The translations under genes and the position numbers were made by a program. This document shows positions 4,716 to 50,516 of a stretch of DNA of 64,000 bases, one piece after another. The DNA is from Pseudonocardia thermophila (lineage in GTDB: Bacteria > Actinomycetota > Actinomycetes > Mycobacteriales > Pseudonocardiaceae). The stretch lies in the NCBI RefSeq assembly GCF_900142365.1, contig NZ_FRAP01000010.1:124001-188000 (forward strand). Direction: 5' to 3'. The notes beneath the pieces are model-generated. The model was not told the origin of the DNA. It saw only the letters and a program-made list of their open reading frames with translations, and ran no database searches. How positions within the stretch are numbered: the stretch's first letter is position 1; the number at the start of each line of letters is the position of its first letter.

Positions 4716-6284
4716 ATGCTCGCCACCACGGCCGCACCACCGCTCGCCGTCTCCGCGGCGCCCAACCCCGAGTACGAAGAGGCTCACCGCGCACTCGTCG
4801 CGGACCTGCGCGACAAGCTGGCCGAGGCAGCGCTCGGCGGCCCCGAGCGCGCCCGCGTCCGCCACGTCGAGCGCGGCAAGCTGCTCCCGCGCGAGCGGGT
4901 CGACACCCTGCTCGACCCCTCCTCGCCGTTCCTGGAGCTCTCCCCGCTCGCCGCGCACGACATGTACGGCGGCGACGCTCCCGGCGCCGGGATGATCACC
5001 GGCGTCGGTCGGGTCAGCGGGCGCGAGTGCGTGATCGTCGCGAACGACGCCACCGTCAAGGGCGGCACCTACTACCCGATGACGGTCAAGAAGCACCTGC
5101 GCGCCCAGGAGGTGGCGCTGCAGAACCGGCTGCCGTGCATCTACCTGGTCGACTCCGGTGGCGCGTTCCTGCCCGAGCAGGACAACGTGTTCCCGGACCG
5201 GGAGCACTTCGGCCGGATCTTCTACAACCAGGCCACGATGTCCGGCCTGGGCATCCCGCAGATCGCCGCCGTGCTCGGCTCGTGCACCGCCGGCGGCGCG
5301 TACGTGCCGGCGATGAGCGACGAGGCGGTCATCGTCCGCGACCAGGGCACGATCTTCCTGGGCGGCCCGCCGCTGGTGAAAGCCGCTACCGGCGAGGTCG
5401 TCACCGCCGAGGAGCTGGGCGGCGGGGAGCTGCACTCCAAGGTCTCCGGCGTCACCGACCACCTCGCCGAGGACGATGCGCACGCGCTCGCCATCGTCCG
5501 CTCGATCGTGGCGACGCTGGGCCCGCGCCCGCCGCGGCCGTGGGACGTCGCGCCCACCGAGGAGCCCCTCGTCGATCCCGACGAGCTGTACGGCGTGGTG
5601 CCCACCGACCCGCGCATCCCCTACGACGTGCGCGAGGTGATCGCCCGGATCGTCGACGGCTCGCGGCTGCACGAGTTCAAGGCCGAGTACGGCACCACGC
5701 TCGTCACCGGGTTCGCGCGCATCCACGGCCACCCGGTCGGGGTCGTGGCCAACAACGGGATCCTGTTCTCCGAGTCGGCCGTCAAGGGTGCGCACTTCAT
5801 CGAGCTGTGCGATCAGCGCGGTATCCCGCTGGTGTTCCTGCAGAACATCACCGGGTTCATGGTCGGGCGCGAGTACGAGGCAGGCGGCATCGCGAAGAAC
5901 GGCGCGAAGATGGTCACCGCCGTCGCGTCGACCCGGGTCCCGAAGTTCACCGTGATCATCGGGGGCTCCTTCGGCGCCGGGAACTACGCCATGTGCGGCC
6001 GGGCCTACTCGCCGCGCTTCCTGTTCATGTGGCCCAACGCGCGCATCTCCGTCATGGGCGGGGAGCAGGCCGCCACCGTGCTCGGCACCGTCGGCAGCGG
6101 GGTCGATCCCGATGCGGTCCGCGCCCAGTACGAGCGGCAGGGCCATCCCTACTACTCCACGGCCCGGCTGTGGGACGACGGCGTGATCGACCCGAAGGAC
6201 ACCCGCACCGTCCTCGGCCTCGCCCTGTCCGCGGCCGCCAACGCGCCGCTTCCCGATCCGGCGTTCGGCGTCTTCCGGATGTGA
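4716..6284 (+). CDS. accD1: acyl-CoA carboxylase carboxyltransferase subunit, methylcrotonyl-CoA type
   Basis: 522 residues. It transfers carboxyl from biotin to an acyl-CoA. The N-terminal half has [20 protein letters not shown] and [20 protein letters not shown]; the latter, with [11 protein letters not shown] and [17 protein letters not shown], is characteristic of the methylcrotonyl-CoA carboxylase beta subunit rather than acetyl/propionyl-CoA carboxylase. The C-terminal half has [20 protein letters not shown], the second crotonase-type oxyanion region. Start ATG 4716 is the first Met after the operator region. It is followed by the biotin subunit and an acyl-CoA dehydrogenase, so the operon probably serves leucine degradation (isovaleryl-CoA to methylglutaconyl-CoA). 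Regulation: the divergent TetR protein. Confidence 0.9.
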
Positions 6285-38960: not shown

Positions 38961-40040
38961 ATGTCGCCGACCGCGGCCGGGCTGCGCGCTGCGCACGCTC
39001 GGTTCGGCAGCCCCGAGGACGTGCTGCGCGATCGCCGGGTGCTCTACCGGGCACTCGCCGCACACCTGGGCTCCGCCGTGCCCGACGCCGACGCCGCCGC
39101 GCTCGACGATCCCCTGCTGAGGGGCCGGCTGGGGGAGGCGTTCGCATCGGGCCGCGGCGGCCTCGCCGCGGCGCCCGCCGGAGGGTTGGGTGCCCTCGTC
39201 GATCCCCGCTGCACCGCGGACGTCGCCGGCTGGCCCGTGCGGGTCGCGTCGACCCCGGCGGCCCCGCAGCTGCTCCGGCCGGCCCTCGCCCGGGTCCACG
39301 GGGTCCTGCGCGCACAGGGGGACCACTGCGCCGATCCGCTGGTGCTCTGCGGCACCGCGGCGCAGGACGCCTTCGCCACCGTCCTCGCCGGTGTCCGGCT
39401 GGCCGTCGAGCGGGTACCGGAGCTCGCCACCGACCTGCTGCCGCACGTGGCTCTGTTCGTGGTCTTGGACCGCGACCGGGCCGGCCGGCTGGGCTCGGCC
39501 TCCGACCGGGACCATCCCGGCATGGTCGTGCTGCCGGCCCCGGCGAGTGCCGTGGAGGCGGCTGAGGCCTTCGTGCACGAGGGCGCTCACCAGAAGTTCT
39601 TCGACCTCGCGCTGACCCACGAGGTGCTCGGTGACGGGCATTGGACGGCCCCGGCCTTCCGGGCCCCGTGGGCGGCGCCGGACGCCCCGGAGTGGCCCCT
39701 GGAGCAGCTGTTCGCGGCCTGGCACGCCTACACCTGTCTGACCGTCCTGGCGGCCGCACTGACCGCCGAGGAGACCGCGCCGGGCTCGCTCCTGCCGCAC
39801 GCCGCTGAGCGGGCCGCCGTGCTCGCGGGCGCGTTGGCCGACCGCAGCCGCCATCTCGGTCGCGACGGCGCCGCCCTGCTGGCGGAGTTCACCGGCTGCG
39901 CCACAGCGCCGTGCGGGCCGGTGCCGGAGCCCGTCGGGGGGCCCGTGCTCGCGGTGCACCGCTCCGGCGATCGCGCGCTCGTCCTGCGCGCCGGCAGCCC
40001 GCCCGAGCTGGTGTGGCGGCGGTTGGACGAGGACGGGTGA
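38961..40040 (+). CDS. HExxH-motif protein, possible peptide-modifying oxygenase or metallopeptidase
   Basis: 359 residues. The one clear motif is AEAFVHEGAHQKFFDLAL with HExxH at 206-210, and a second conserved-looking block PLEQLFAAWHAYTCLTVL with His255. That pairing (HExxH on a helix, then a helix ending in a His-aromatic pair about 45 residues later) resembles the HEXXH-domain proteins found in actinobacterial RiPP loci, some of which are now described as 2-oxoglutarate-dependent peptide hydroxylases. A plain zinc peptidase is the alternative. No signal peptide. A 59-residue ORF with a good ribosome site follows 86 bases later. Confidence 0.55.
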   Translation: MSPTAAGLRAAHARFGSPEDVLRDRRVLYRALAAHLGSAVPDADAAALDDPLLRGRLGEAFASGRGGLAAAPAGGLGALVDPRCTADVAGWPVRVASTPAAPQLLRPALARVHGVLRAQGDHCADPLVLCGTAAQDAFATVLAGVRLAVERVPELATDLLPHVALFVVLDRDRAGRLGSASDRDHPGMVVLPAPASAVEAAEAFVHEGAHQKFFDLALTHEVLGDGHWTAPAFRAPWAAPDAPEWPLEQLFAAWHAYTCLTVLAAALTAEETAPGSLLPHAAERAAVLAGALADRSRHLGRDGAALLAEFTGCATAPCGPVPEPVGGPVLAVHRSGDRALVLRAGSPPELVWRRLDEDG

Positions 40041-40436: not shown

Positions 40437-41729
40437 ATGCAGGTCGAAGAACTGCTCCCACAGTTCCCCATCAAGGAGTTCCACCCCTTCCCCCGCGCCC
40501 TCCTCGGTCCGGGTTCGCACGAGCTGATCGGTCCGGAGGCGCTCAAGCTGGGGTTCAAGCGGACCCTGGTCATGACGTCGGGTCTGCGCGGCTCGAACAT
40601 CGTGCACAAGATCGTTGAGTCCATGAAGTACCACGGGCTCGAGGTCGTCGTGTACGACAAGGTCGAGTCCAACCCCAAGGACTACAACGTCATGGAAGCC
40701 GTGGCGATGTACCAGGAGAACGAGTGCGACTCGTTCGTCTCCATCGGCGGCGGTAGCTCCCACGACGCCTGCAAGGGCGCGCGCATCTCCGTGGCCCACG
40801 ACGGCCGCAACGTGAACGAGTTCGAGGGCTTCAACAAGTCCGAGAACCCGAAGAACCCGCCGCACATCGCGGTCTCCACCACGGCCGGTACCGGTTCGGA
40901 GACCTCGTGGGCGTACGTCATCACCGACACCACGACCGACCCGGACAACCCGCACAAGTACGTCGCGTTCGACGACGCCTCGGTCACCACCCTGGCGATC
41001 GACGATCCGGTGCTCTACTACAGCTGCCCGGTCGACTACACCGCGCAGTGCGGGTTCGACGTGCTCGCGCACGCCTCGGAGCCCTACGTCTCCCGGATCG
41101 ACTTCCAGCCGTCGCTGGGCAACGCACTGCACGCGATCAAGCTCACCGCGGAGAACCTGCGCGAGGCCACGTGGAACCCGCAGAGCCTCGCCGGCCGCCA
41201 GGGCATGATGTACGCCCAGTACATCGCCGCCCAGGCGTTCAACTCCGGCGGCTTGGGGATCATCCACTCGATCTCGCACGCGGTGTCGGCGTTCTACGAC
41301 ACCCACCACGGCCTGAACAACGCCATCGCGCTGCCGCGCGTGTGGGCGTTCAACATGCCGGTGCACTACAAGCGGTTCGCCGACATCGCGCGGGCCATGG
41401 GTGTGGACACCCACGGCATGAACGACGTCAAGGCGGCCGAGGCGGCGCTCGCCGCTGCGATCCGGCTGCTGCGCGACGTGGGCATCCCGGAGCGGTTCGT
41501 CGACGTCAAGCAGGACACCTACTCGAAGAACCGGCTGGGCCAGGGCCCGACCAAGTTCTACGAGAACGCCAAGACGATCGTCGGTGACGCGGCGGACGTC
41601 GACCGCATCACCAACCACGTCCTCGGTGACGCCTGCACCCCGGGCAACCCGAAGGAGTGCACGTTCGAGACCGTCCGGCCCGTCGTCGAGCACTGCATGA
41701 CCGGCGACCTGGACGACCTGCTCTCCTGA
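40437..41729 (+). CDS. mdo: NDMA-dependent methanol/alcohol dehydrogenase
   Basis: 430 residues. It belongs to the group III metal-dependent alcohol dehydrogenases, decameric enzymes with non-exchangeable NAD(P)H, assayed with the artificial acceptor NDMA. GGGSSHDACKGARI (nucleotide loop), TTAGTGSETSWAYVI, CGFDVLAHASEPY and HSISHAVSAFYDTHHGLNNA supply the metal-binding Asp/His set. In mycobacteria the homologue (mno/mdo) oxidises methanol and other primary alcohols or diols and needs mycofactocin as electron carrier. It starts a run with a MoxR/VWA pair and an MftM-like gene, as I recall for the M. smegmatis mno locus. A strong hairpin follows. Confidence 0.93.
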   Translation: MQVEELLPQFPIKEFHPFPRALLGPGSHELIGPEALKLGFKRTLVMTSGLRGSNIVHKIVESMKYHGLEVVVYDKVESNPKDYNVMEAVAMYQENECDSFVSIGGGSSHDACKGARISVAHDGRNVNEFEGFNKSENPKNPPHIAVSTTAGTGSETSWAYVITDTTTDPDNPHKYVAFDDASVTTLAIDDPVLYYSCPVDYTAQCGFDVLAHASEPYVSRIDFQPSLGNALHAIKLTAENLREATWNPQSLAGRQGMMYAQYIAAQAFNSGGLGIIHSISHAVSAFYDTHHGLNNAIALPRVWAFNMPVHYKRFADIARAMGVDTHGMNDVKAAEAALAAAIRLLRDVGIPERFVDVKQDTYSKNRLGQGPTKFYENAKTIVGDAADVDRITNHVLGDACTPGNPKECTFETVRPVVEHCMTGDLDDLLS

Positions 41730-41812: not shown

Positions 41813-42982
41813 TTGCCGCAGTTCGAATCAGTGGACCAGGTCATCGACGAGCTGGCCGCGGTGGGCTACATCGCCGACACCCGCCTGGCCACCACCGTCT
41901 TCCTCGTGACGCGGCTGGACAAGCCGCTGCTCATCGAGGGCCCCGCCGGTGTCGGGAAGACCGAGCTGGCGAAGGCGCTGGCCGCCGTCTCCGGGCGGCA
42001 GCTGCTGCGCTTGCAGTGCTACGAGGGCCAGGACGAGACCAAGGCCCTCTACGAGTGGGACTACGGCAAGCAGCTGCTCTACACCCAGATCCTGCGGGAG
42101 AAGATCGGCCAGGTCGTCGCGGACGCCCCCGACCTGGCGACCGCCGTCGACCGGATCGGCGCGCAGGAGAGCGTGTTCTTCTCCGAGCGGTTCCTCGCGC
42201 CGCGCCCGCTGCTCGAGGCGATCCGCTCCGAGGAGCCGGTCGTCCTGCTCATCGACGAGGTCGACCGGGCCGACGAGGCACTGGAGGCGGTGCTGCTGGA
42301 GACGCTCGCCGAGTACCAGGTCTCGGTGCCGGAGGTGGGCACGTTCACCGCGAAGCAGCCGCCGTGGGTGATCCTCACCAGCAACAACACCCGCGATCTC
42401 TCCGCGGCGCTCAAGCGGCGCTGCCTGCACCTGTTCCTCGACTACCCCTCGGCCGAGCGTGAGCTGGAGATCGTCCGCAGCAAGCAGACCGGGCTGCCGG
42501 ACGCGCTCGCCGAGCAGCTGGTCGGCATCGTGCGCGGGCTGCGGGAGCTGGACCTGCGCAAGTCCCCGTCGATCTCGGAGACGATCGACTGGGCCCGCAC
42601 GCTGGCCGTGCTCGGCGTGCAGGAGCTGTCGTCGGCGATCCTGTCCGACACCGCGTCCGTCGTCGTCAAGTACGACAAGGACGTCCGCAAGGCGCTCGGT
42701 GCGCTGCCACGGCTGGTCGATCCGAACGCCGTCGTGCCGGAGCCGGGGCACGGTCACGGGCACGGCCACGGTCATGGGCACGGTCATGGGCACGACCACG
42801 ACCACGGCGAGCCCGACGGACGCGCGATCCGCGCGGCCAAGGACACCCCCGGCCGGCACGGCAACACCTACGGCAGCGACCCGCTGAACGGGGGTCCGAA
42901 GCCGGTCACGCCGGCGAAGGTGTCGGCCGACCGCGGCTCGCGCAGCTTCACCGCCGGCCTGGGACGTAAGCGGGCCCTGTAG
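41813..42982 (+). CDS. MoxR-family AAA+ ATPase with C-terminal His-rich tail
   Basis: 389 residues from TTG 41813, chosen for GGAG 8 bases upstream; the upstream frame overlaps the hairpin. Walker A GPAGVGKT (43-50), Walker B VVLLIDEVDRAD and sensor region ILTSNNTRDLSAALKRRC make it a MoxR/RavA-type ATPase, a class that works with VWA proteins to remodel or load metals into partner enzymes. After the ATPase lid comes a run of alternating Gly-His then Asp-His (312-331, ten histidines), a metal-binding stretch like those of HypB or UreE. The VWA gene overlaps by one base. The likely client is Mdo or the second alcohol dehydrogenase. Confidence 0.88.
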   Translation: MPQFESVDQVIDELAAVGYIADTRLATTVFLVTRLDKPLLIEGPAGVGKTELAKALAAVSGRQLLRLQCYEGQDETKALYEWDYGKQLLYTQILREKIGQVVADAPDLATAVDRIGAQESVFFSERFLAPRPLLEAIRSEEPVVLLIDEVDRADEALEAVLLETLAEYQVSVPEVGTFTAKQPPWVILTSNNTRDLSAALKRRCLHLFLDYPSAERELEIVRSKQTGLPDALAEQLVGIVRGLRELDLRKSPSISETIDWARTLAVLGVQELSSAILSDTASVVVKYDKDVRKALGALPRLVDPNAVVPEPGHGHGHGHGHGHGHGHDHDHGEPDGRAIRAAKDTPGRHGNTYGSDPLNGGPKPVTPAKVSADRGSRSFTAGLGRKRAL

Positions 42983-44514
42983 TGGAAGCCGCGCTGCACC
43001 GCTTCGTCCGGCTCCTGCGCCTGCGCGGCGTGCGCATCTCGACGCCCGAGGCGCTCGACGCGATGATCTGCGCGCGGGAGCCGGGCATGCTGCGCGACAA
43101 GGAGACGCTGCGCGCTGCCCTGCGCGTCGCGCTGGTGAAGGACCGGCGCGACGAGGAGGCCTTCGACGAGGTCTTCGACCAGTTCTTCGCGCTGGTGAGG
43201 GTGGGCCCCGCCGAGGTCGGGCACGGTCACGGCCACGGCCACGAGGACCTCACCGACGAGGGCGCGCTGCAGGACTTCACGCTCTCGGAGGACCCGGGCG
43301 AGACCCCGCAGCAGGGGCACAGCCACGGCAAGCCCGTCGACATCCGCGAGTTCTTCAACCCCGAGGACCTCGCTCAGCAGTACAACCTGCACCAGGAGGC
43401 CAACAAGATCGATCTCGCGTCGATGACGGACGAGATCGTGCTGTCCAAGGACAACCAGGGCCTGCTCGGCGAGGGCAACCGCGTGCAGATCGAGACCGAC
43501 TCGCTGCACGACGCCGGCGTCCCCGGCCAGATCAGCCAGCAGCAGGGCACGAAGGTCGACGCCGATCTGTCGGTGTCGCAGCAGGAGGCGCTGCTGGCGT
43601 GGCTGAACCAGGTCGACCCGGACCCCGCCGACCAGGAGGGCACCGAGGAGGACGCCGCGGCGCTGCGCCGGCGGCTCGACGGCCTGCTCGCCGGCTTGCC
43701 GGAGGCCATCAAGCACCACCTCGAGAAGTTGATGGCACTGGAGAACCTGGTCATCGAGGGGCACGAGAAGTCCGTCGCCGAGGTCGACCGGGTCGCGGAA
43801 CAGGAGCGCATGCAGCTGGAGGAGTCGATCCGCAGGTTGGCGCGGACGCTGCGCGGCGGGCTCACCCACAAGCGGAAGGTGGCCGCGCGCGGGCGCATCG
43901 ACCCCGGCCGCACGATGCGCCGCAACATGCGCTTCGACGGGGTGCCGTTCGCGCCGATCACCGTCCAGCGGGCGGAGGACAAGCCGCGGCTGGTCGTGCT
44001 CACCGATGTGTCGCTGTCGGTGCGCGCCACCGCCCGGTTCACCCTGCACCTCGTCCACGGGCTGCAGAACCTGTTCGGCCAGGTGCGCACGTTCGCGTTC
44101 GTGAAGGACGTCGTCGAGGTCACCGACCTGTTCGAGGACCACCCGATCGAGCAGGCGCTGATGCGGATCTTCGGCGGCGAGCTGCTCGACGTCGACGCGA
44201 ACTCTGACTACGGCGCCGTCTTCGGCTCGTTCATCGAGGACTTCGGGTCGGCGGTCACCCGCCGCTCGACCGTGATCGTGCTCGGCGACGGGCGCGGCAA
44301 CGGGAACGACCCGAACCTGGAGGCGTTCGCCGAGATCACCCGTCGGGCCCGGGAGACGATCTGGCTGACCCCCGAACCGCGCTACTCGTGGGGGCTGGGC
44401 CGCTGCGACCTGCCGCTCTACGCGGAGCACTGCTCGCGGGTGCGGGTCGTGCGGGACCTGACGGGGCTGGAGAGCGCGGCGAACGAGATGGCCGTGGACC
44501 GGGTGGGCCGATGA
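42982..44514 (+). CDS. VWA (CoxE-like) protein with His-rich segments
   Basis: 510 residues starting at GTG 42982 (stop-start overlap with the ATPase gene). The N-terminal region has the helix RGVRISTPEALDAMICAREP seen in CoxE-like partners of MoxR. GHGHGHGHE (80-88) and GHSHGK (112-117) add metal-binding histidines. Residues 225-300 are strongly helical and acidic, probably coiled coil. The C-terminal von Willebrand A domain has the MIDAS motif DVSLS at 342-346. VWA/MoxR pairs act as ATP-driven chaperones for metalloenzymes (CoxD/CoxE, NorQ/NorD, CbbQ/CbbO). Here the neighbour is a metal-dependent alcohol dehydrogenase. Confidence 0.88.
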   Translation: MEAALHRFVRLLRLRGVRISTPEALDAMICAREPGMLRDKETLRAALRVALVKDRRDEEAFDEVFDQFFALVRVGPAEVGHGHGHGHEDLTDEGALQDFTLSEDPGETPQQGHSHGKPVDIREFFNPEDLAQQYNLHQEANKIDLASMTDEIVLSKDNQGLLGEGNRVQIETDSLHDAGVPGQISQQQGTKVDADLSVSQQEALLAWLNQVDPDPADQEGTEEDAAALRRRLDGLLAGLPEAIKHHLEKLMALENLVIEGHEKSVAEVDRVAEQERMQLEESIRRLARTLRGGLTHKRKVAARGRIDPGRTMRRNMRFDGVPFAPITVQRAEDKPRLVVLTDVSLSVRATARFTLHLVHGLQNLFGQVRTFAFVKDVVEVTDLFEDHPIEQALMRIFGGELLDVDANSDYGAVFGSFIEDFGSAVTRRSTVIVLGDGRGNGNDPNLEAFAEITRRARETIWLTPEPRYSWGLGRCDLPLYAEHCSRVRVVRDLTGLESAANEMAVDRVGR

Positions 44515-45383
44515 GCCCCGCCGGGTCCGCGACCGCTGCCGCGATCGGTGACGAACGGCCCTTTCGTCCACTCCAGGTGGACGAAAGGGCCGTTCGTCGC
44601 CCATCGGAGGGGGCCGGGAACCGGGGCAACGAGCCCACCCGCACGGGGGGTGGTGGGCTCGCCCGTCCCGGCGGCCCGATCCCGCTGGACCGGCTCGACA
44701 ACGACCTCGCCGGCTGGCTGGAGCGCACGCTGGTCCGACCAGGGCTGCTGGCGCCGGAGGCGTTCGAGCGGGTGTTCGTGGCGCTCGTGGAGTCCGCGGC
44801 GGCCGATCCCGACGCCGCGTGGGAGGCGTTCTACCGCAACACCCTCGACCGCCTCGCCGCCGGTGGCGGCGTCCCCGGCGGCACGATCGCCGAGTTCGCG
44901 CCGGTGCACGACACAGCGGCGGCGCTGGTCCGCGGCCGGCGCGTGGTCGAGCTGGGCAGCTGCTTCGGGTTCCTGTCGCTGCGACTGGCCCGCGCCCGGC
45001 ACGAGGTCATCGCCGTCGACCTCGTGCCCGGCACCGCGGCCCTGCTGCGGCGGATCGCCACCCGGCTCGGCCTCGCCGTGACGGCGGTGGCGGGGGACGC
45101 CGTGCACCCCCCGCTCGCCGCGTCGAGCGCCGACACCGTGCTGGCCGTGCACTTGCTGGAGCACCTGCCGCCCGAAGCTGGGGACCGGGTGATCGCGCAG
45201 ATGCAGCGGATCGCGCGGCGGCGGGCCGTCGTCGCGGTGCCGTTCGAGGACGAGCCGAACCCCGCGTGGGGCCACGTCCGCACCTTCGACCTGGCGGCGC
45301 TGCAGGAGCTGGGGGCGCGCACCGGCTGGCCGTTCCGGGTGTTCGAGCACCACGGTGGCTGGCTGGTGCTCGACAAGCCCTGA
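44511..45383 (+). CDS. mftM: SAM-dependent methyltransferase, MftM-like
   Basis: 290 residues. ATG 44511 overlaps the VWA stop (ATGA). The first 55 residues are low-complexity and partly encoded by a 47-base inverted repeat (44551-44597), then LDRLDNDLAGWLERTLVRPG opens the conserved part. SAM motif I is VVELGSCFGFL (145-155), with AVHLLEHLPPE later. The sequence around LDNDLAGWLERTL and IAEFAPVHDTAAALVRGR is what I recall for the mycofactocin-associated methyltransferase MftM, which methylates the oligoglucosyl chain of mycofactocin. The gene context with mdo and the MnoSR-like pair supports this; the specific assignment is from memory. Confidence 0.78.
   Translation: MSPAGSATAAAIGDERPFRPLQVDERAVRRPSEGAGNRGNEPTRTGGGGLARPGGPIPLDRLDNDLAGWLERTLVRPGLLAPEAFERVFVALVESAAADPDAAWEAFYRNTLDRLAAGGGVPGGTIAEFAPVHDTAAALVRGRRVVELGSCFGFLSLRLARARHEVIAVDLVPGTAALLRRIATRLGLAVTAVAGDAVHPPLAASSADTVLAVHLLEHLPPEAGDRVIAQMQRIARRRAVVAVPFEDEPNPAWGHVRTFDLAALQELGARTGWPFRVFEHHGGWLVLDKP
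44551..44597. repeat. perfect inverted repeat (copy 2 of the family) inside the mftM 5' coding region
   Basis: Two perfect 21-base arms flank a 5-base loop. The core CGAACGGCCCTTTCG matches the copy at 3196-3241 (CGAACGGCCCTCTCG). Here it falls in frame in the N-terminal codons of the methyltransferase (GDERPFRPLQVDERAVRRP). Confidence 0.75.
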
Positions 45384-45679: not shown

Positions 45680-46348
45680 TCAGAGCAGGCCCAGCTTGCT
45701 CGCCGCGTACACCGCCTCCGCCCGCCGGCCCACCAGCAGCTTGCGCATCACGTTCGAGACGTGGAACTTCACCGTCGTCTCGGAGATGAACAGCTCCTTG
45801 CCGATCGCGCGGTTGGACAGGCCGCGGGCGAGCAGGCGAAGCACCTCGAGCTCGCGGTCGGTGAGCCGTTCCCGGTCCGGCGACGGGCTGTTGAGGCTGC
45901 GCACCATCGCGGATGCGCTGCGGGCGTCGAACGCGCTCTCACCGCGCGAGACCGCGCGGATCGCGCGCACCAGCTCGGTGGTGTCGACGTCCTTCACGAC
46001 GTAGCCGCGGGCGCCGGCCTGCACCGCCTCGACGACGAGCCGGTCCTCCGCGAACGTGGTCAGCACCAGCACGCCGAGGCCCGGGTGCTCCTGGGTGAGG
46101 CGCTTGCACAGATCGAGCCCGTCGGCCTGCGGCCCCGTGGTGAGCTTCAGGTCGAGCAGCACGACGTTCGGGCGGGTCTTCGCCACGGCGGCCGCGGCGG
46201 CCTCAGCGGACCCGGCCTCGCCCACGACGGCCAGGTCCTCCTCGCGGTCGAGCACGGCCCGCAACCCCTGGCGCATGATCGCGTGGTCGTCGACGAGCAC
46301 GATCCGGGTGGGCGCCTGCCGGGGGCGGGCGGCGACGGGAGCGGTCAT
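45680..46348 (-). CDS. mnoR: NarL/LuxR-family response regulator, MnoR-like
   Basis: 222 residues. The receiver domain (15-130) has the acidic pair Asp20-Asp21, phosphoacceptor Asp66 in VVLLDLKL and Lys in YVVKDVD. The C-terminal LuxR helix-turn-helix (about 158-215) reads LTDRELEVLRLLARGLSNRAIGKELFISETTVKFHVSNV in overlapping form. Translationally coupled to the kinase by a 4-base overlap. In M. smegmatis MnoSR is needed to express the mno alcohol dehydrogenase on methanol or 1,3-propanediol, so mdo is the expected target here. Confidence 0.85.
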   Translation of the reverse strand: MTAPVAARPRQAPTRIVLVDDHAIMRQGLRAVLDREEDLAVVGEAGSAEAAAAAVAKTRPNVVLLDLKLTTGPQADGLDLCKRLTQEHPGLGVLVLTTFAEDRLVVEAVQAGARGYVVKDVDTTELVRAIRAVSRGESAFDARSASAMVRSLNSPSPDRERLTDRELEVLRLLARGLSNRAIGKELFISETTVKFHVSNVMRKLLVGRRAEAVYAASKLGLL

Positions 46349-47685
46349 GAGGGGTCCTCCACGGGCAGCGGCACGCTGACCTGCACCTGCAGGCCACCCA
46401 ACCGCGACTTCGACAGCGTCAAGGTGCCGCCCAGTTCACGGGCGCGCGCCTGGATGTTGGCCATGCCGCGGTGCTCGCCGGACGGGGCGCGGGCGGCGGC
46501 CCGCATCGACCGCCGCACGTCCTCGGGGCGGCCGCGGCCGTCGTCGGCGATGGTGAGCACCACGCGGTCGCGCCGGTAGACCAGCCGGACCTCCGCGCGC
46601 GTGGCCTCCGCGTGCACGGCCGTGTTGAACAGCGCCTCCCCGGCGACGCGGAACAGCGACTGCTCGGCCTGCGCGGGTAGCGGGACGGGATTGCCGCCGA
46701 TCCGCACGTCGACGCGCAGGTCCTCGGGCATGTGGACGTCCGGCAACCGCTCCAGCATGGCCGGGAGGGTCTTCTCGCCGTGCTCGTCGTCGGACAGCGC
46801 GTAGATCGCCGACCGCAGCTGCTCGACGGCCCGGCGGGTCAGTTCCTTGGCGGTGTCCAGCCGCTCGATCAGCGCGGGATCGGTGAGCTCGGTGCGGCAC
46901 AGCTCGATCTGCATGCCGGCGGACAGCACGAACTGGGTGACCGAGTCGTGCAGCTCCCGTGCGATGCGGTGCCGCTCGTCGACGAGCACCTGGTGCTGGC
47001 GCGCCGCGAACAGCTCCTCTTGGGCCGCCTGCAGCTGGCTGTTGCGTTCGGCCAAGTCCTCCGCCTGCTTGCGAGCTTGTTCACGCAGCCGCTCCGAGCG
47101 TCGCAGCAGTGCCTCCCCGCGCTGGTAGAGCGCGCAGTTCTGCAGCGCGGCCGCGGTCTGGCCGGCGAGGATGCGCAGCACCGACTCGTCGGTCGCGTCG
47201 ATCTCCCGCTCGGTGCCGGTCCACACCGCGAAGCTGCCGACGACCGTGCACCCGGACGTGATCGGGACGTGCACGTGCTGGTCCCGCGAGCCGTGCACGT
47301 GGTCGGCGGCGGTGAACTCGGCCGCCCGGATCCGCTCGACGTGCGACCAGACCTCCTCGGGGATGCGGTCGCGGTCAGTGATCTCCACCCCGCCGGGGCC
47401 GAGCACGAGGTGGCGCGGGTGGGCGTCCGGCATCTGCCCGTCGACCAGCGCGAACACCACCCAGCGGGCGGTCAGGTGGTCCGCGGCGGCGGCCACGACG
47501 GCGCGCACCAGCGCTTCGGAGCCCTCGTGGGTGCGCACGAGCGCCGCCGAGATCCGGTCCAGCGCGTGGATGACCCGCCGCAGACCCTCCGCTGAGTGCC
47601 GGTACTCGGGGTAGAACGACGGCTTGCCGGACCGGATGCCGGTCAGCGCGTGCAGGTCCGGCGTGACCCGGGCGACCTCGGTCAC
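46345..47685 (-). CDS. mnoS: cytoplasmic sensor histidine kinase, MnoS-like
   Basis: 446 residues with no membrane helix. A GAF domain spans about 45-185; it is followed by a coiled coil (190-235), the HisKA_3 dimerisation helix with His246 in RIARELHDSVTQ, and a HATPase domain with TIADDGRGRP and MANIQARARELGG. The sensor therefore reads an intracellular signal, possibly an alcohol or aldehyde bound by GAF. The histidines in DHVHGSRDQHVHVP (128-141) might bind a ligand or metal. It follows the iron-type dehydrogenase gene after 22 bases and overlaps the regulator. Confidence 0.87.
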   Translation of the reverse strand: MTEVARVTPDLHALTGIRSGKPSFYPEYRHSAEGLRRVIHALDRISAALVRTHEGSEALVRAVVAAAADHLTARWVVFALVDGQMPDAHPRHLVLGPGGVEITDRDRIPEEVWSHVERIRAAEFTAADHVHGSRDQHVHVPITSGCTVVGSFAVWTGTEREIDATDESVLRILAGQTAAALQNCALYQRGEALLRRSERLREQARKQAEDLAERNSQLQAAQEELFAARQHQVLVDERHRIARELHDSVTQFVLSAGMQIELCRTELTDPALIERLDTAKELTRRAVEQLRSAIYALSDDEHGEKTLPAMLERLPDVHMPEDLRVDVRIGGNPVPLPAQAEQSLFRVAGEALFNTAVHAEATRAEVRLVYRRDRVVLTIADDGRGRPEDVRRSMRAAARAPSGEHRGMANIQARARELGGTLTLSKSRLGGLQVQVSVPLPVEDPS

Positions 47686-47707: not shown

Positions 47708-48952
47708 TCACAGCGCCGCCCGCAGCATCGTCTCGATGTCGGCCACCGACGCCGGGCGCGGGTTCGTGGTGAGGCAGGCGTCCTGCAGCGTCAGCTCCGC
47801 CAGCCGCGGCACGTCCGCCTCGGACACCCCCAGCTCGGCCAGCCCCCGCGGCACGCCGACGTCGTCGGCGAGCTTGCGCACCCGCTCGGCCACCAGCTCC
47901 GCCGCGTCCGCCCCGGGTGTGTCGGGGTGCAGGCCGAGGTCCATGGCCTGCGCGATCGCGCGGAACCGCTCCGGCTCCGCCTCCCCGTTGAACCGGATGA
48001 CGTGCGGCAGCAGCACCCCGTTGACGACCCCGTGCGGGAGGTCGAGCAGGCCGCCGACCTGGTGGCTCATGGCGTGCGTGGCGCCGAGGATCGCGTTGGT
48101 GAACGCGAGCCCGGCCTCCAGCGCCGCGTGCGCCATGCACTGGCGGGCCGCGGCGTCGTCGGGCTCCTCCATCGTGTGCGCGAGGTTGCCGACGACCAGC
48201 GACACCGCCTGCAGCGCGTGCGTGTCGGTGAGCGGGTTGTGCGCCAGCGACACGTACGCCTCGATCGCGTGGGTGAGCGCGTCGAGCCCGGTGGCGGCGT
48301 TGAGGTCGTCGGGCATCGTGGTGAGCAGCCGCGGATCGATCACCGACACGTCCGGGACGAGCGCCCGCCCCATGATGGTGATCTTGTTGCGGCGCTTCGT
48401 GTCGGTGACGATGCAGAACTGCGAGACGTCCGCCCCCGTCCCCGACGTCGACGGGATCATCACCATCGGCGGGATCGGGAAGACGATCTTGTCGATGCCT
48501 TCGTAGTCGAGGATCCGCCCGCCGTTGGACGACAGCAGCGCGATGCCCTTCGCCGCGTCCATCACCGAGCCGCCGCCGATGCCGAGCACCACGTCGCAGC
48601 CTGCGGCGACGTACTGCTCGTAGCCGGCCTCGATCTCGTGGTCCTTCGGGTTGGGCGTGACGTCGTACCAGACGTGCGGGGTCAGGCCGGCCTCGTGCAG
48701 GTGGCCGAGCAGCTCATCCGGCCAGCCCGCGGCGAGCAGCCCCGGGTCGGTGGCCAGGAACGGCCGGCGCGCGCCGAGCCGCAGCGCTGCGTGCGCCGCC
48801 TCGGACAGCGAACCGGGGCCGAACACGACCTCCGGGGCGTGGAACTTCGCCAGCTGAGGCCGTGGCCGGTCGCCTGGATCGTCGCCGGGAGCACTGCGCC
48901 GGGCGAGCAGGACGGAGTCCCCTGCTCGGATTGCGGTGGCGACGAGGGTCAC
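47708..48952 (-). CDS. iron-containing (group III) alcohol dehydrogenase
   Basis: 414 residues from GTG 48952, with GAGGAGGG 5 bases upstream. It has GIGGGSVMDAAKGIALL (nucleotide loop), PSTSGTGADVSQFCIV, and the metal site in TGLDALTHAIEAYVS and ATHAMSHQVGGLLDLPHGVVNG, the Asp-His-His-His set. It likely oxidises or reduces a small alcohol or diol such as 1,3-propanediol, lactaldehyde or ethanol. Unlike Mdo it has the general Fe-ADH signature and may use free NAD. It heads the operon with the sensor kinase and regulator, on the opposite strand to mdo. Confidence 0.9.
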   Translation of the reverse strand: MTLVATAIRAGDSVLLARRSAPGDDPGDRPRPQLAKFHAPEVVFGPGSLSEAAHAALRLGARRPFLATDPGLLAAGWPDELLGHLHEAGLTPHVWYDVTPNPKDHEIEAGYEQYVAAGCDVVLGIGGGSVMDAAKGIALLSSNGGRILDYEGIDKIVFPIPPMVMIPSTSGTGADVSQFCIVTDTKRRNKITIMGRALVPDVSVIDPRLLTTMPDDLNAATGLDALTHAIEAYVSLAHNPLTDTHALQAVSLVVGNLAHTMEEPDDAAARQCMAHAALEAGLAFTNAILGATHAMSHQVGGLLDLPHGVVNGVLLPHVIRFNGEAEPERFRAIAQAMDLGLHPDTPGADAAELVAERVRKLADDVGVPRGLAELGVSEADVPRLAELTLQDACLTTNPRPASVADIETMLRAAL

Positions 48953-49027
48953 GGCTGCCCTCCTCACTGAAGACGGTGGCCGGTGTTCGAGGCTACAAGC
49001 CAATTGCGCATGGTGGCCCTGTACGTA

Positions 49028-49068
49028 CGGAGGGTTGGCCCTCCGAACGGTTAGGGACGCGAACCCTA
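49028..49068 (-). terminator. tandem hairpins after the GAF regulator gene
   Basis: CGGAGGG-TTGG-CCCTCCG (49028-49045) and TAGGG-N7-CCCTA (49052-49068) lie in the 121-base gap between the GAF regulator stop and the dehydrogenase start. They could end the regulator transcript or regulate the next gene. Confidence 0.5.
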
Positions 49069-49073
49069 CGGCG

Positions 49074-50516
49074 TCACCCGTCGTCCGCCGGCCGAGCTGC
49101 GAGGATCGCCCGGCGCGGGTCGGGATCGGGCAGCCTGGCGCGCAGCCGGTGCAGCAGCTCGGGATCGGTGTCGCCGCCCGCGCGCAGCAGCGCCCACATC
49201 GCGTCGACGTCGCCGCTGCGCAGCACCGCCGCTCGGACGGCGCCGGTGAGCAACTCCCGTTCCTCGCGGATCGCGGGCGCATCCGAGCAGGGCAGGAGCG
49301 GGCCCCGGTAGGCCAGCGCGGCGTCGCGCACCCGCCCGCTCATCAGCGCCTCGCGGACCTCGCGGAAGTCGGCGTCGACGCGGGCGGTGAGCCGGTACGG
49401 CTGAGTGCGCAGGATCGCTGGGCCGAGCACCCCGCGCAGCCGGTGCACCTCCGCGCGGATCGTGACGGTCTTGCCGTGGTCGCCGTGCAGCATCGTGGCC
49501 AGCGCGTCCGCGGTGAGGCCCTCCGGGTGCAGGACGAGCAGCGCCAGTAGCTCGGCGTGCCGGCGGGACAGCTGCACCGGGCGGCCGTCGACGTGCACGA
49601 CGGGCCGGTGCGCGCCCAGGAACGAGACGGTGAGCACGGGCAGCGTCCGGGCGCCGCGGTCGACCGGGCGGGCGAGCCAGCCCTCGGCCAGCGGTTCGAG
49701 CACCGCCTCGCCGCCCTCGAACCGCACTCGGTCGCCGCTGTGCGGCAGGTGGACCCGCGCCGGCAGCCAACCGGCCGGCTGCGCGGCGAGCACCCGCCCG
49801 CTCGGGGCGAGCAGCGCACCCGGGCCGCCGCGCAGGGCGGTCAGGTGCGGCAGGCCCTTGGCGAGCAGGCGTTCGTCGCGCACGGCGATCTGCGCGGCGA
49901 GGTGGCTCTCGGCGAGCTTGGCGGCGGCGACCACCAGCGCGAGCGTCGTCGGGTGGAAGGTGCGCGCTGCCCCGGTGACGTCGACGGCGCCGATGAGCTC
50001 ACCGGTGTCCGGGTCGTGGATCGGTGCGGCCGCGCAGGTCCACGAGTGGTAGGTGCGCACCAGGTGCTCGGCGGAGTGGATGGTGACCGGCTCGTCGGCG
50101 GCCAGCGCGGTGCCCATCGCGTTGGTGCCGATCGCGTCCTCCGACCAGCGCGTGCCCTCGACGAGGCCGACCGGCTCGGCCCGGCGCAGCACGTCGCGAT
50201 CGCCCTCGCGCCACATGATCAGGCCGCGCTCGTCGGTCACGATCATCATGTGCTTGGCCTGGTCGGCGATCTCCACCAGCGTCTGGCGCAGCAGCGGCAG
50301 CACCGGCGCGAGCGGGTGCGACCGGCGGATCCGCTCCAGCTCGGCCGGTTCGTGCTCGTAGGGCGGGGTGTCGTGCTCGGGATCGACGTGTGCGGCGAGC
50401 GATCGCTCCCACGACCGTGAGACGACCTCCCGCGGCGGCAGCGCAGGCGTGCCGCCGGACAGGACGGCCTCACGGGTGCGCTCGAGCGCGTCCCGCACGG
50501 GATCGGTGGCGCTCAT
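49074..50516 (-). CDS. GAF-domain transcriptional regulator without sigma54 module
   Basis: 480 residues from ATG 50516. Residues about 15-190 look like the sensory half of AcoR/acetoin-type activators ([17 protein letters not shown], then [20 protein letters not shown] and [20 protein letters not shown]). The AAA+ sigma54-contact domain expected next is absent; instead there is a beta-rich region and a winged helix around 335-400 ([20 protein letters not shown], then [24 protein letters not shown]). It is thus a direct DNA binder for sigma70-type promoters. It diverges from the aldehyde dehydrogenase gene, its obvious target. Confidence 0.85.

Follow-up and report, generated by a model that had tools for sequence, protein, structure and literature searches.

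A two-gene AAA+/VWA motor beside mdo in Pseudonocardia thermophila suggests metal loading, or another way of switching on, for a mycofactocin-type alcohol dehydrogenase

The window analysed here, a 64,000-nucleotide stretch of the Pseudonocardia thermophila genome, carries genes for a MoxR AAA+ ATPase and a VWA protein downstream of mdo, in the following arrangement.

40437..41729, + strand: mdo, NDMA/mycofactocin-type methanol (primary alcohol) dehydrogenase, 430 aa (TIGR04266, 680.8 bits, above the cut-off of 625)
41813..42982, + strand: madB-like MoxR AAA+ ATPase, 389 aa, TTG start
42982..44514, + strand: madC-like VWA protein of the CoxE/NorD kind, 510 aa, GTG start (VWA_CoxE, 7.9e-34)
44511..45383, + strand: mftM, mycofactocin oligosaccharide methyltransferase (NF041255, 286.4 bits, above the cut-off of 200)
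44550..44598, no strand: strong, terminator-like palindromic hairpin just 3' of madC
45680..46348, - strand: MadR response regulator, MnoR-like (NF047785, 349.7 bits, above the cut-off of 300)
46345..47685, - strand: MadS sensor kinase, MnoS-like (NF047786, 561.4 bits, above the cut-off of 500)
47708..49282, - strand: match to the ErcA model below its cut-off (475.5 bits vs 550)

The TAG stop of madB and the GTG start of madC have one base in common (42982), the overlap already read in the earlier note, which had also placed the pair between mdo and an MftM-like gene. The scores for TIGR04266 and NF041255 bear this placement out, with the qualification that the hairpin at 44550-44598 separates the madC stop from the conserved portion of mftM, whose uncertain start forms an ATGA overlap with that stop. 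Homology of the 47708..49282 product begins at about residue 143, so that the real start lies further in. MftM, MadRS and a second Fe-ADH are frequent neighbours of the module. The names MadB and MadC come only from the NCBIfam equivalog models NF047784 and NF047783, for which we found no source paper; these are the best families of the two window proteins, which miss the cut-offs (394.7 bits against 475, and 277.9 against 600), and MadR and MadS pass theirs in the same locus. Because these models exist, the earlier description of the pair as an 'undescribed' machine was too strong. Among the matches listed in the open-access literature we found neither a published function for the pair nor a biochemical study or deletion of its genes, and the available portions of three M. 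smegmatis papers (PMC11303327, PMC6529628, PMC11778925) do not name MSMEG_6240 or MSMEG_6241, which are at most covered by ranges such as 6236-6242.

Mdo itself has the type III Fe-ADH fold. Its probable metal ligands are D208, H212, H277 and H291, as placed by FucO spacing, and these positions read DHHH in 153/153 other Mdo sequences. The principal features of its two partners are listed below, those of MadB first.

41939..41962, + strand: Walker A, GPAGVGKT, residues 43-50, invariant in a 35-row alignment
42245..42259, + strand: Walker B, LLIDE, residues 145-149, with L145, L146, D148 and E149 invariant in the 35-row alignment
42746..42805, + strand: MadB His run, (GH)8(DH)2, residues 312-331, in the disordered C-terminal tail
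42935..42979, + strand: C-terminal end of the MadB tail, GSRSFTAGLGRKRAL, with R-S/A-F and then basic residues, behind the His run
43195..43569, + strand: MadC linker predicted to be disordered, residues 72-196 (model pLDDT <50), housing both His motifs
43219..43242, + strand: MadC His motif 1, GHGHGHGH, residues 80-87, followed by E
43315..43326, + strand: MadC His motif 2, GHSH, residues 112-115, followed by GK
43852..44502, + strand: MadC VWA domain, approximately residues 291-507 (span of structural matches)

MadB matches Pfam AAA_5 and possesses Walker A, Walker B and an arginine finger; the GPAGVGKT, DE and N-R-R-R positions agree with the window protein in 151/153 relatives. Its predicted fold is nearest to NorQ and CbbQ, which tie, and belongs to the MoxR branch rather than to other AAA+ clades. 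A GKQLL sequence at residues 85-89 resembles the GRxLL/I motif of the NorQ helix-2 insert, in a region where model residues 71-86 have pLDDT <50, as do residues 313-322 and 324-333 of the tail. The predicted architecture of MadC is NorD-like, with an N-terminal domain, a disordered linker and a MIDAS-bearing VWA domain, and the VWA domain of NorD aligns with it across 218 residues in a structural match. The MIDAS (D342-x-S344-x-S346, T381, D436) reads DSSTD in 142 of 153 other sequences, DSSSD in nine and DSSDD in one, with one unaligned. Pfam, motif and fold matches agree with the first assignment, which placed the genes among MoxR/VWA pairs such as NorQD and CbbQO.

Likeness to these systems has clear limits. 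With NorQ/NorD the pair shares its type, the predicted fold of MadB and the build of MadC, at 19-22% identity in the structural matches; NorQ/NorD, however, inserts metal into nitric oxide reductase, a membrane oxidase, whereas the enzyme linked to MadBC is a type III alcohol dehydrogenase. Both MadB and MadC often carry His motifs, a feature that sets NorQ/NorD apart only by the wording of PMC9976466, where the text available uses 'His-rich' 0 times and 'histidine' once. CbbQ/CbbO acts on Rubisco and is described, in the portions consulted of a literature that includes PMC4660213, as an activase of the inhibited enzyme, not as a metal inserter. CoxD/CoxE, of CO dehydrogenase cofactor assembly, has the VWA_CoxE domain in common with MadC, but MadC scores 117.5 bits against 173.6-181.9 bits for the CoxE-type proteins of its own genome. 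That genome encodes five AAA paralogues of MadB (43-48% identity), Mo-hydroxylase subunits or XdhC adjoin three of the paralogue loci tested (L022, L023, L024), and no run of at least three consecutive [GDSE]H pairs occurs in the four called paralogues of the five. We rejected the pair as the CoxD/CoxE of a Mo hydroxylase, as the genome has such pairs elsewhere. The nearest paralogue is the Rv2426c-type pair at obg-proB-proA-nadD, whose AAA protein in the same genome stands at 57% to MadB and which, unlike MadBC, is without mdo; 14 such or similar loci (L094-L107) have C-terminal tails of 0-21 residues and a sole HxH, in one VWA protein. The part of PMC7174638 consulted gives Rv2426c as the counterpart of MSMEG_6241, with 45.9% similarity.

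The tie to Mdo proposed in the earlier note is upheld by genomic context. Among 397 genomes sampled from the order, the pair is present with the same gene order at 55/55 mdo loci that pass the cut-off. It is also present at 78/79 assessable named loci, a set biased to close relatives of the window because the best 80 of 387 were taken, and in which L133 and L180 duplicate sampled loci and L124 another named locus. (L055 and L162, recovered by tblastn, lie outside the ORF geometry filter.) In the reverse direction, the first draw of 200 genomes, whose 23 mdo genomes are all within the 397, gave 24/24 MadB matches of at least 361 bits (at most 11 candidates scored per genome) and 24/24 MadC matches of at least 244 bits (at most seven) adjoining mdo. 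This two-way linkage in the order opposes a general MoxR pair lying near mdo by chance. The finding named beforehand as fatal, a pair mostly in genomes lacking mdo, did not appear at strong scores in the 200 genomes. Weaker relatives of MadB and MadC without mdo are common, and a phylum-wide draw, with at most five candidates scored per genome, yielded one clear exception, a MadB of 368.9 bits (genome G545, locus L091) without nearby mdo or His motif. Conversely, one Mdo copy (L158) is without the pair in a genome that has a complete module (L141), and at L087 MadB is present and MadC was not found in the stretch read. Such a near-strict three-gene module means that Mdo probably does not act unaided inside the cell. 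This is relevant to efforts to produce active Mdo in a foreign host and to assays of its mycofactocin reaction, in a field, mycofactocin-dependent alcohol oxidation, that is actively studied.

The pair could instead serve another enzyme of the locus, such as the second Fe-ADH or the mycofactocin pathway, with the adjacency to mdo a matter of operon history. The frequency of MftM, MadRS and the second Fe-ADH as neighbours would fit; these neighbours, however, are inconstant, and within the 25 kb read none of MftM, MadR, MadS and the second Fe-ADH was found in 3/4 plasmid modules (L108, L109, L111). In the 200-genome draw, mftC is present in 23/23 mdo genomes vs 101/200 overall, but the two genes are 15 kb or less apart in just 10/23, and no MadB of at least 361 bits occurs in genomes that have mftC and lack mdo. 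We regard this explanation as very improbable.

The histidine runs are genuine protein features. The earlier note had counted eight Gly-His and two Asp-His pairs at residues 312-331 of the ATPase, and GHGHGHGHE and GHSHGK in its partner, and all are read at the positions listed above. The densest 20-residue stretch of the ATPase holds 10 His, compared with at most six in 20,000 shuffles of its own residues. We rejected both a microsatellite at the DNA level and an artefact of reading frame: Gly and His are each encoded by more than one codon along the run (GGG/GGT/GGC, CAC/CAT), and 34 related tails bearing the motif differ in the residue that separates the His (G 110, D 68, S 51, T 20, P 13, A 10, others 14), so that the run is not a recent microsatellite. 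HxHxH spacing is kept although the intervening residue varies, and 124/127 HxH motifs of 55 MadC proteins fall inside the linker.

The survey of mdo loci that the earlier note had called for found the motifs in both partners of 34/55 mdo-linked pairs, in neither of 21/55 and in one alone of none, under a post hoc rule (at least two HxH motifs in each partner) adopted after mixed cases had been seen. The earlier density rule, which asked for at least 4 His/20 residues of the MadB tail and 3/20 or more of MadC 60-130, gave 33 pairs with both, two with MadB alone, one with MadC alone and 19 with neither. These counts exclude L074, L077 and L150, which lie at contig ends, L087, where MadC was not found, and L158, which has no pair. 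A Fisher p of 1e-15 ignores relatedness and is not to be quoted. In a tree-aware test the motif rule gave four agreeing pairs, none opposing and two that do not differ (p 0.125), and the density rule a median p of 0.25, usually with three agreeing pairs; a previous 63-row tree had given two to three agreeing pairs and none opposing. The test cannot reach 0.05, co-occurrence rests on few independent events, and the tree does not separate gain of the motifs from loss. Only the five loci of the other lineage pass the MadB and MadC cut-offs in the order draw, all five without His motifs. Among 16 more distant loci, where Mdo at L089 and L093 is by BLAST only, MadC alone satisfies the motif rule in 3/16; L088, a weak MadB whose tail has no His, was excluded from this count and from the second tree. 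L090 and L092, counted nowhere, have motifs in both partners on contigs ending at the expected mdo, with a partial Mdo match at L090. We also rejected an Mdo residue switching with His state: nine columns show a difference in three or more of the five lineages without His motifs, no column does so in all five, and several track older branches.

Since 21/55 pairs are without His motifs in both partners, the runs are accessory and not the core of the machine, and metal borne by them is not essential. They could be no more than zinc-storage or solubility tails on an assembly or stability chaperone of the Mdo oligomer. The tails are disordered and fast-varying, as such a role would allow, and the part of PMC3893208 consulted presents MoxR proteins as chaperones in the maturation of dedicated complexes. 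Against this stand the conserved HxHxH spacing and the joint presence or absence of the motifs in the two proteins, as a storage tail would need no partner, and we consider it improbable.

At the level of sequence, the comparisons establish a module of mdo, madB and madC, its linkage, intact ATPase and MIDAS motifs, and co-occurring His motifs. The whole suggests that the two-gene motor beside Mdo loads metal or otherwise switches the enzyme on. The earlier note is thereby borne out in part: its tie to Mdo holds, and the metal transfer, the opening of the decamer and the access of mycofactocin to the bound nucleotide that it proposed would be candidate functions. Taken together, linkage to mdo, likeness to NorQ, CbbQ and NorD, and the paired His motifs make MadBC very probably a dedicated chaperone/activase of Mdo, with metal loading its likeliest task. 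Our preferred reading, towards which we lean with restrained confidence, is that mdo, madB and madC are a single functional module in which MadBC loads or resets the metal of Mdo and the His segments help but are dispensable. By analogy with NorQD, MadB would form a hexamer and act as the MoxR AAA+ motor, with MadC as VWA adaptor, the MadC MIDAS would dock to an acidic patch on immature or idle Mdo, and ATP hydrolysis by MadB would twist MadC and strain the enzyme. In strained Mdo the active-site metal (D208/H212/H277/H291), beside tightly held NAD(P), could then be put in place or reset. Among most members of the lineage to which the window belongs, the His-rich MadB tail and the two MadC linker motifs may collect a divalent metal, most likely zinc, and hand it on in the manner of the metallochaperones UreE and HypB. 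This passing of metal would be helpful and dispensable. Metal by itself may be too little to account for the need for the pair, because other type III Fe-ADHs have no adjoining pair, among them the second one of the window.

A different possibility is that MadBC is a repair activase without metal work, which pries Mdo open to expel a tightly bound inhibitor or dead-end nucleotide, or lets bound NAD(P)H reach mycofactocin, as CbbQO frees inhibited Rubisco; the His runs would then buffer metal or be incidental. We judge it rather unlikely, and several observations are in its favour. Of the solved structures, those closest to Mdo in sequence include 8zwd and 8zrl, both NAD-dependent methanol dehydrogenases, and 3bfj, a 1,3-propanediol oxidoreductase, and the methanol dehydrogenases of Bacillus methanolicus have a dedicated activator, ACT, described in the portion consulted of PMC12926040 as a Nudix hydrolase that clears the inhibitor ADP-ribose; ACT is likewise dedicated to a type III methanol dehydrogenase, but unrelated to the AAA+/VWA proteins of MadBC. 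CbbQ ties with NorQ as nearest predicted MadB fold, and the AAA and MIDAS motifs are retained although 21/55 modules are without His motifs. Moreover, actinobacterial nicotinoproteins of the Fe-ADH family hold non-exchangeable NAD, with an electron partner then unknown (PMC3023750, as far as consulted), and we infer that Mdo is one of them. What a repair activase leaves without account is the joint occurrence of the His motifs, lacking in the 14 related mdo-free pairs examined, and the response to zinc that is shared in M. smegmatis. According to the data consulted in PMC7174638, expression of the M. smegmatis operon is lower in zinc excess and in the zur mutant; with no zinc-starvation value listed there for the three genes, zinc enters the argument as a correlation only.

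Within the preferred reading of metal loading, a more specific idea, which we put forward tentatively as having somewhat less than an even chance, is that motor and adaptor form a histidine relay, the flexible tails around the MadB ring and the motifs in the stretching linker of MadC taking up metal and, as ATP drives the twisting, feeding it to a nicotinoprotein alcohol dehydrogenase under strain. If true, a metallochaperone and a remodelling motor would be fused in one complex, and the mycofactocin system would gain a missing enzyme-maturation step. A real relay would also offer a simple system for how MoxR/VWA machines deliver metal, with the His-free lineages as natural controls. Behind the His run, R[SA]F stands close to the end of 37/42 second-lineage MadB tails (counted by eye).

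The position of the genes argues that a MoxR/VWA pair very probably serves Mdo, the NDMA/mycofactocin-type methanol dehydrogenase, as a dedicated chaperone or activase. The three genes concerned are:

40437-41729, same strand as the AAA+ and VWA genes and upstream of both: mdo
41813-42982, mdo strand, downstream of mdo: MoxR-type AAA+ ATPase gene
42982-44514, mdo strand, overlapping the AAA+ gene by one base: VWA protein gene

The histidine runs attributed to both proteins in the earlier note proved exact on re-reading the sequence. The top NCBIfam family is MadB for the ATPase (394.7 bits, under the curated cut-off of 475) and MadC for the VWA protein (277.9 bits, under the cut-off of 600), while MadR and MadS, on the opposite strand, and the downstream MftM pass theirs. 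The host genome comprises 6.1 Mb in 47 contigs, and the nearest Mdo sequences among the matches listed, at 93%, are those of a Pseudonocardiales bacterium and Pseudonocardia oceani. Upstream of mdo lies a gene for an aKG-HExxH-type peptide beta-hydroxylase (38961-40040; TIGR04267, 53.9 bits, above the cut-off of 40).

In 200 genomes of the order, mdo scored over the cut-off at 24 loci in 23 genomes. Among the candidates scored there, 24 matches to the MadB model reached at least 361 bits (next best, 329) and 24 to the MadC model at least 244 bits (next best, 162); a pair occurring mostly without mdo was sought as the refuting case, and all of these strong matches adjoin mdo. The order Mdo-MadB-MadC on one strand recurs at 55 of 55 mdo loci in a larger draw (54 of 397 genomes of the order). 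Among 80 named loci, the best 80 of 387, one stops at a contig edge and the pair is present at 78 of the 79 that can be assessed, the sole locus lacking it (L158) being an additional mdo copy in Pseudonocardia acidicola, which has a complete module at L141. Across the phylum (386 genomes), a MadB match lies within 500 bases of 20 of 23 mdo-like matches; two of the others are at contig ends, one of them with a cut MadB, and the third has a weak MadB neighbour. Four MadB matches of at least 361 bits in this draw do not adjoin a listed mdo match: L089 has an Mdo found by BLAST, L090 and L092 are at contig ends, and the clear exception is L091 (genome G545), with no mdo in the stretch read. In the first draw mftC is found in all 23 mdo genomes versus 101 of 200 overall (P = 4e-8, kinship disregarded), and within 15 kb of mdo in 10 of the 23. 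Three of four plasmid modules adjoin methane/ammonia-monooxygenase-like genes, a hint that some members may oxidise alcohols formed from small alkanes; plasmid mdo-madB-madC genes near monooxygenase subunits A, B and C were read in Mycolicibacterium chubuense NBB4 and two Rhodococcus strains (L108, L109, L110).

Mdo scores fall into two groups, above 830 bits and 645-693 bits, and MadB and MadC scores divide likewise in the first draw, where the curated Mad cut-offs pass the first lineage only. The window module belongs to the second lineage, and one genome (G081) carries modules of both. A third, remoter mdo lineage (L075-L093, mostly group f32 of the same phylum) scores about 450-540 bits, below the cut-off; its MadB often bears a short terminal motif like HRSTHKHAH, its MadC DHDHDH, and at some loci about 0.65-1.5 kb separate madB and madC.

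The survey of histidine runs in both partners that the earlier note called for found HxH motifs in both proteins at 34 of 55 loci, in neither at 21 and in one only at none, under a rule set after an earlier density-based rule had given 3 mixed loci of 55. The motif-free loci comprise 13 of the first lineage and 8 of the second (L053, L067, L068, L069, L202, L220-L222). Both proteins carry the motifs at 78 of 78 named loci; of another 16 loci from the phylum draw, 13 have motifs in both and 3 in MadC only. A MadB tree built without the tail yields four independent pairs in agreement, none in opposition and two alike (p = 0.125), so that joint change in the two partners is consistent with these sequences, with few events behind it. 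The histidine runs are accessory, occurring in many members but not in every one. Fourteen related pairs that lack mdo (L094-L107) have MadB tails of 0-21 residues, and among them HxH occurs just once, in one VWA protein. Column 200 of Mdo (D200 in the window, eight residues before the presumed metal ligand D208) is His in the His-free type 1 lineage, in L067 and in the L068 clade, Asp or Ala in 34 of 34 His-rich loci, and Asp also in the His-free L053 and L202.

The predicted MadB structure (mean pLDDT 78, pTM 0.66) has a mostly confident AAA+ domain that ends near residue 302, the disordered tail beyond it bearing the histidine run, and its ten best structural matches among those listed are all NorQ or CbbQ. 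In MadC (mean pLDDT 66, pTM 0.45) a helical N-terminal domain (1-70), modelled with confidence, is joined by a low-confidence linker (72-196) to a VWA domain, which is also the domain plan of NorD; of the 127 HxH motifs counted in 55 MadC proteins, 124 lie within the linker. Deletions in the NorD linker left the oxidase without its iron (PMC13036017). Mainly because of this parallel and the position of the MadC motifs, metal loading is favoured as the best single mechanism, and we consider it somewhat probable by analogy. Integrin-type VWA domains match MadC at equal or higher Z, so that NorD is not singled out by fold alone. The main rival, in which the pair would remodel an inhibitor or nucleotide, seems less likely to us than metal loading. 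For the counterpart in Mycobacterium smegmatis, growth on ethanol requires MSMEG_6242 (Mdo) and MSMEG_6236-6242 are co-induced (PMC6529628); MSMEG_6240 and 6241, annotated as hypothetical and AAA, drop along with MSMEG_6242 in a zur mutant and in zinc excess, and no value is listed for the three under zinc chelation (PMC7174638). The downward direction and the lack of a chelation value point to co-regulation and a zinc connection, not to zinc supply.

To call the machine undescribed, as the earlier note does, goes too far. We found no published function for the pair in the open-access papers listed, a set beyond which one may exist, but the families are known to curators, since NCBIfam names them MadB and MadC, and the kind of machine is already known; what is new is the target and the paired histidine motifs.

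Past madC, positions 44550-44598 form a perfect palindrome (arms of 22 bases, loop of 5) with a folding energy of -67 kcal/mol over the surrounding 81 bases (z -9.45). The sequence has four exact copies in the genome, and the other three sit 4-20 bases past ORF ends by our own ORF caller, which argues for a dispersed terminator-like element. The window copy falls inside the mftM frame (44511-45383), towards its 5' end. Read by eye, that frame has no ATG, GTG or TTG at the start point of several Pseudonocardia relatives (M-I-x-L...LDNDLAGW); further upstream, an ATG overlapping the madC stop and a GTG within the hairpin arm are in-frame candidates.

Other MoxR/VWA pairs were also read. L107 (4540-12000) holds an mdo-less pair amid obg, proB, proA-like, nadD-like and rsfS genes, and L019 a similar pair whose genes are about 5.6 kb apart. 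In the host genome, CoxD/CoxE-type pairs (L022, L023, L024) have Mo-hydroxylase subunits or XdhC as neighbours. Mdo-less MadB/MadC-like pairs in L091, L095, L096 and L098 each follow an ORF of 251-270 aa; these ORFs look alike by eye, and the three compared (L095, L096, L098) have no Pfam match. Genes for a pyridine-nucleotide disulphide oxidoreductase and a thioredoxin lie downstream of the pair in L095 and, judged by inspection, also in L091.
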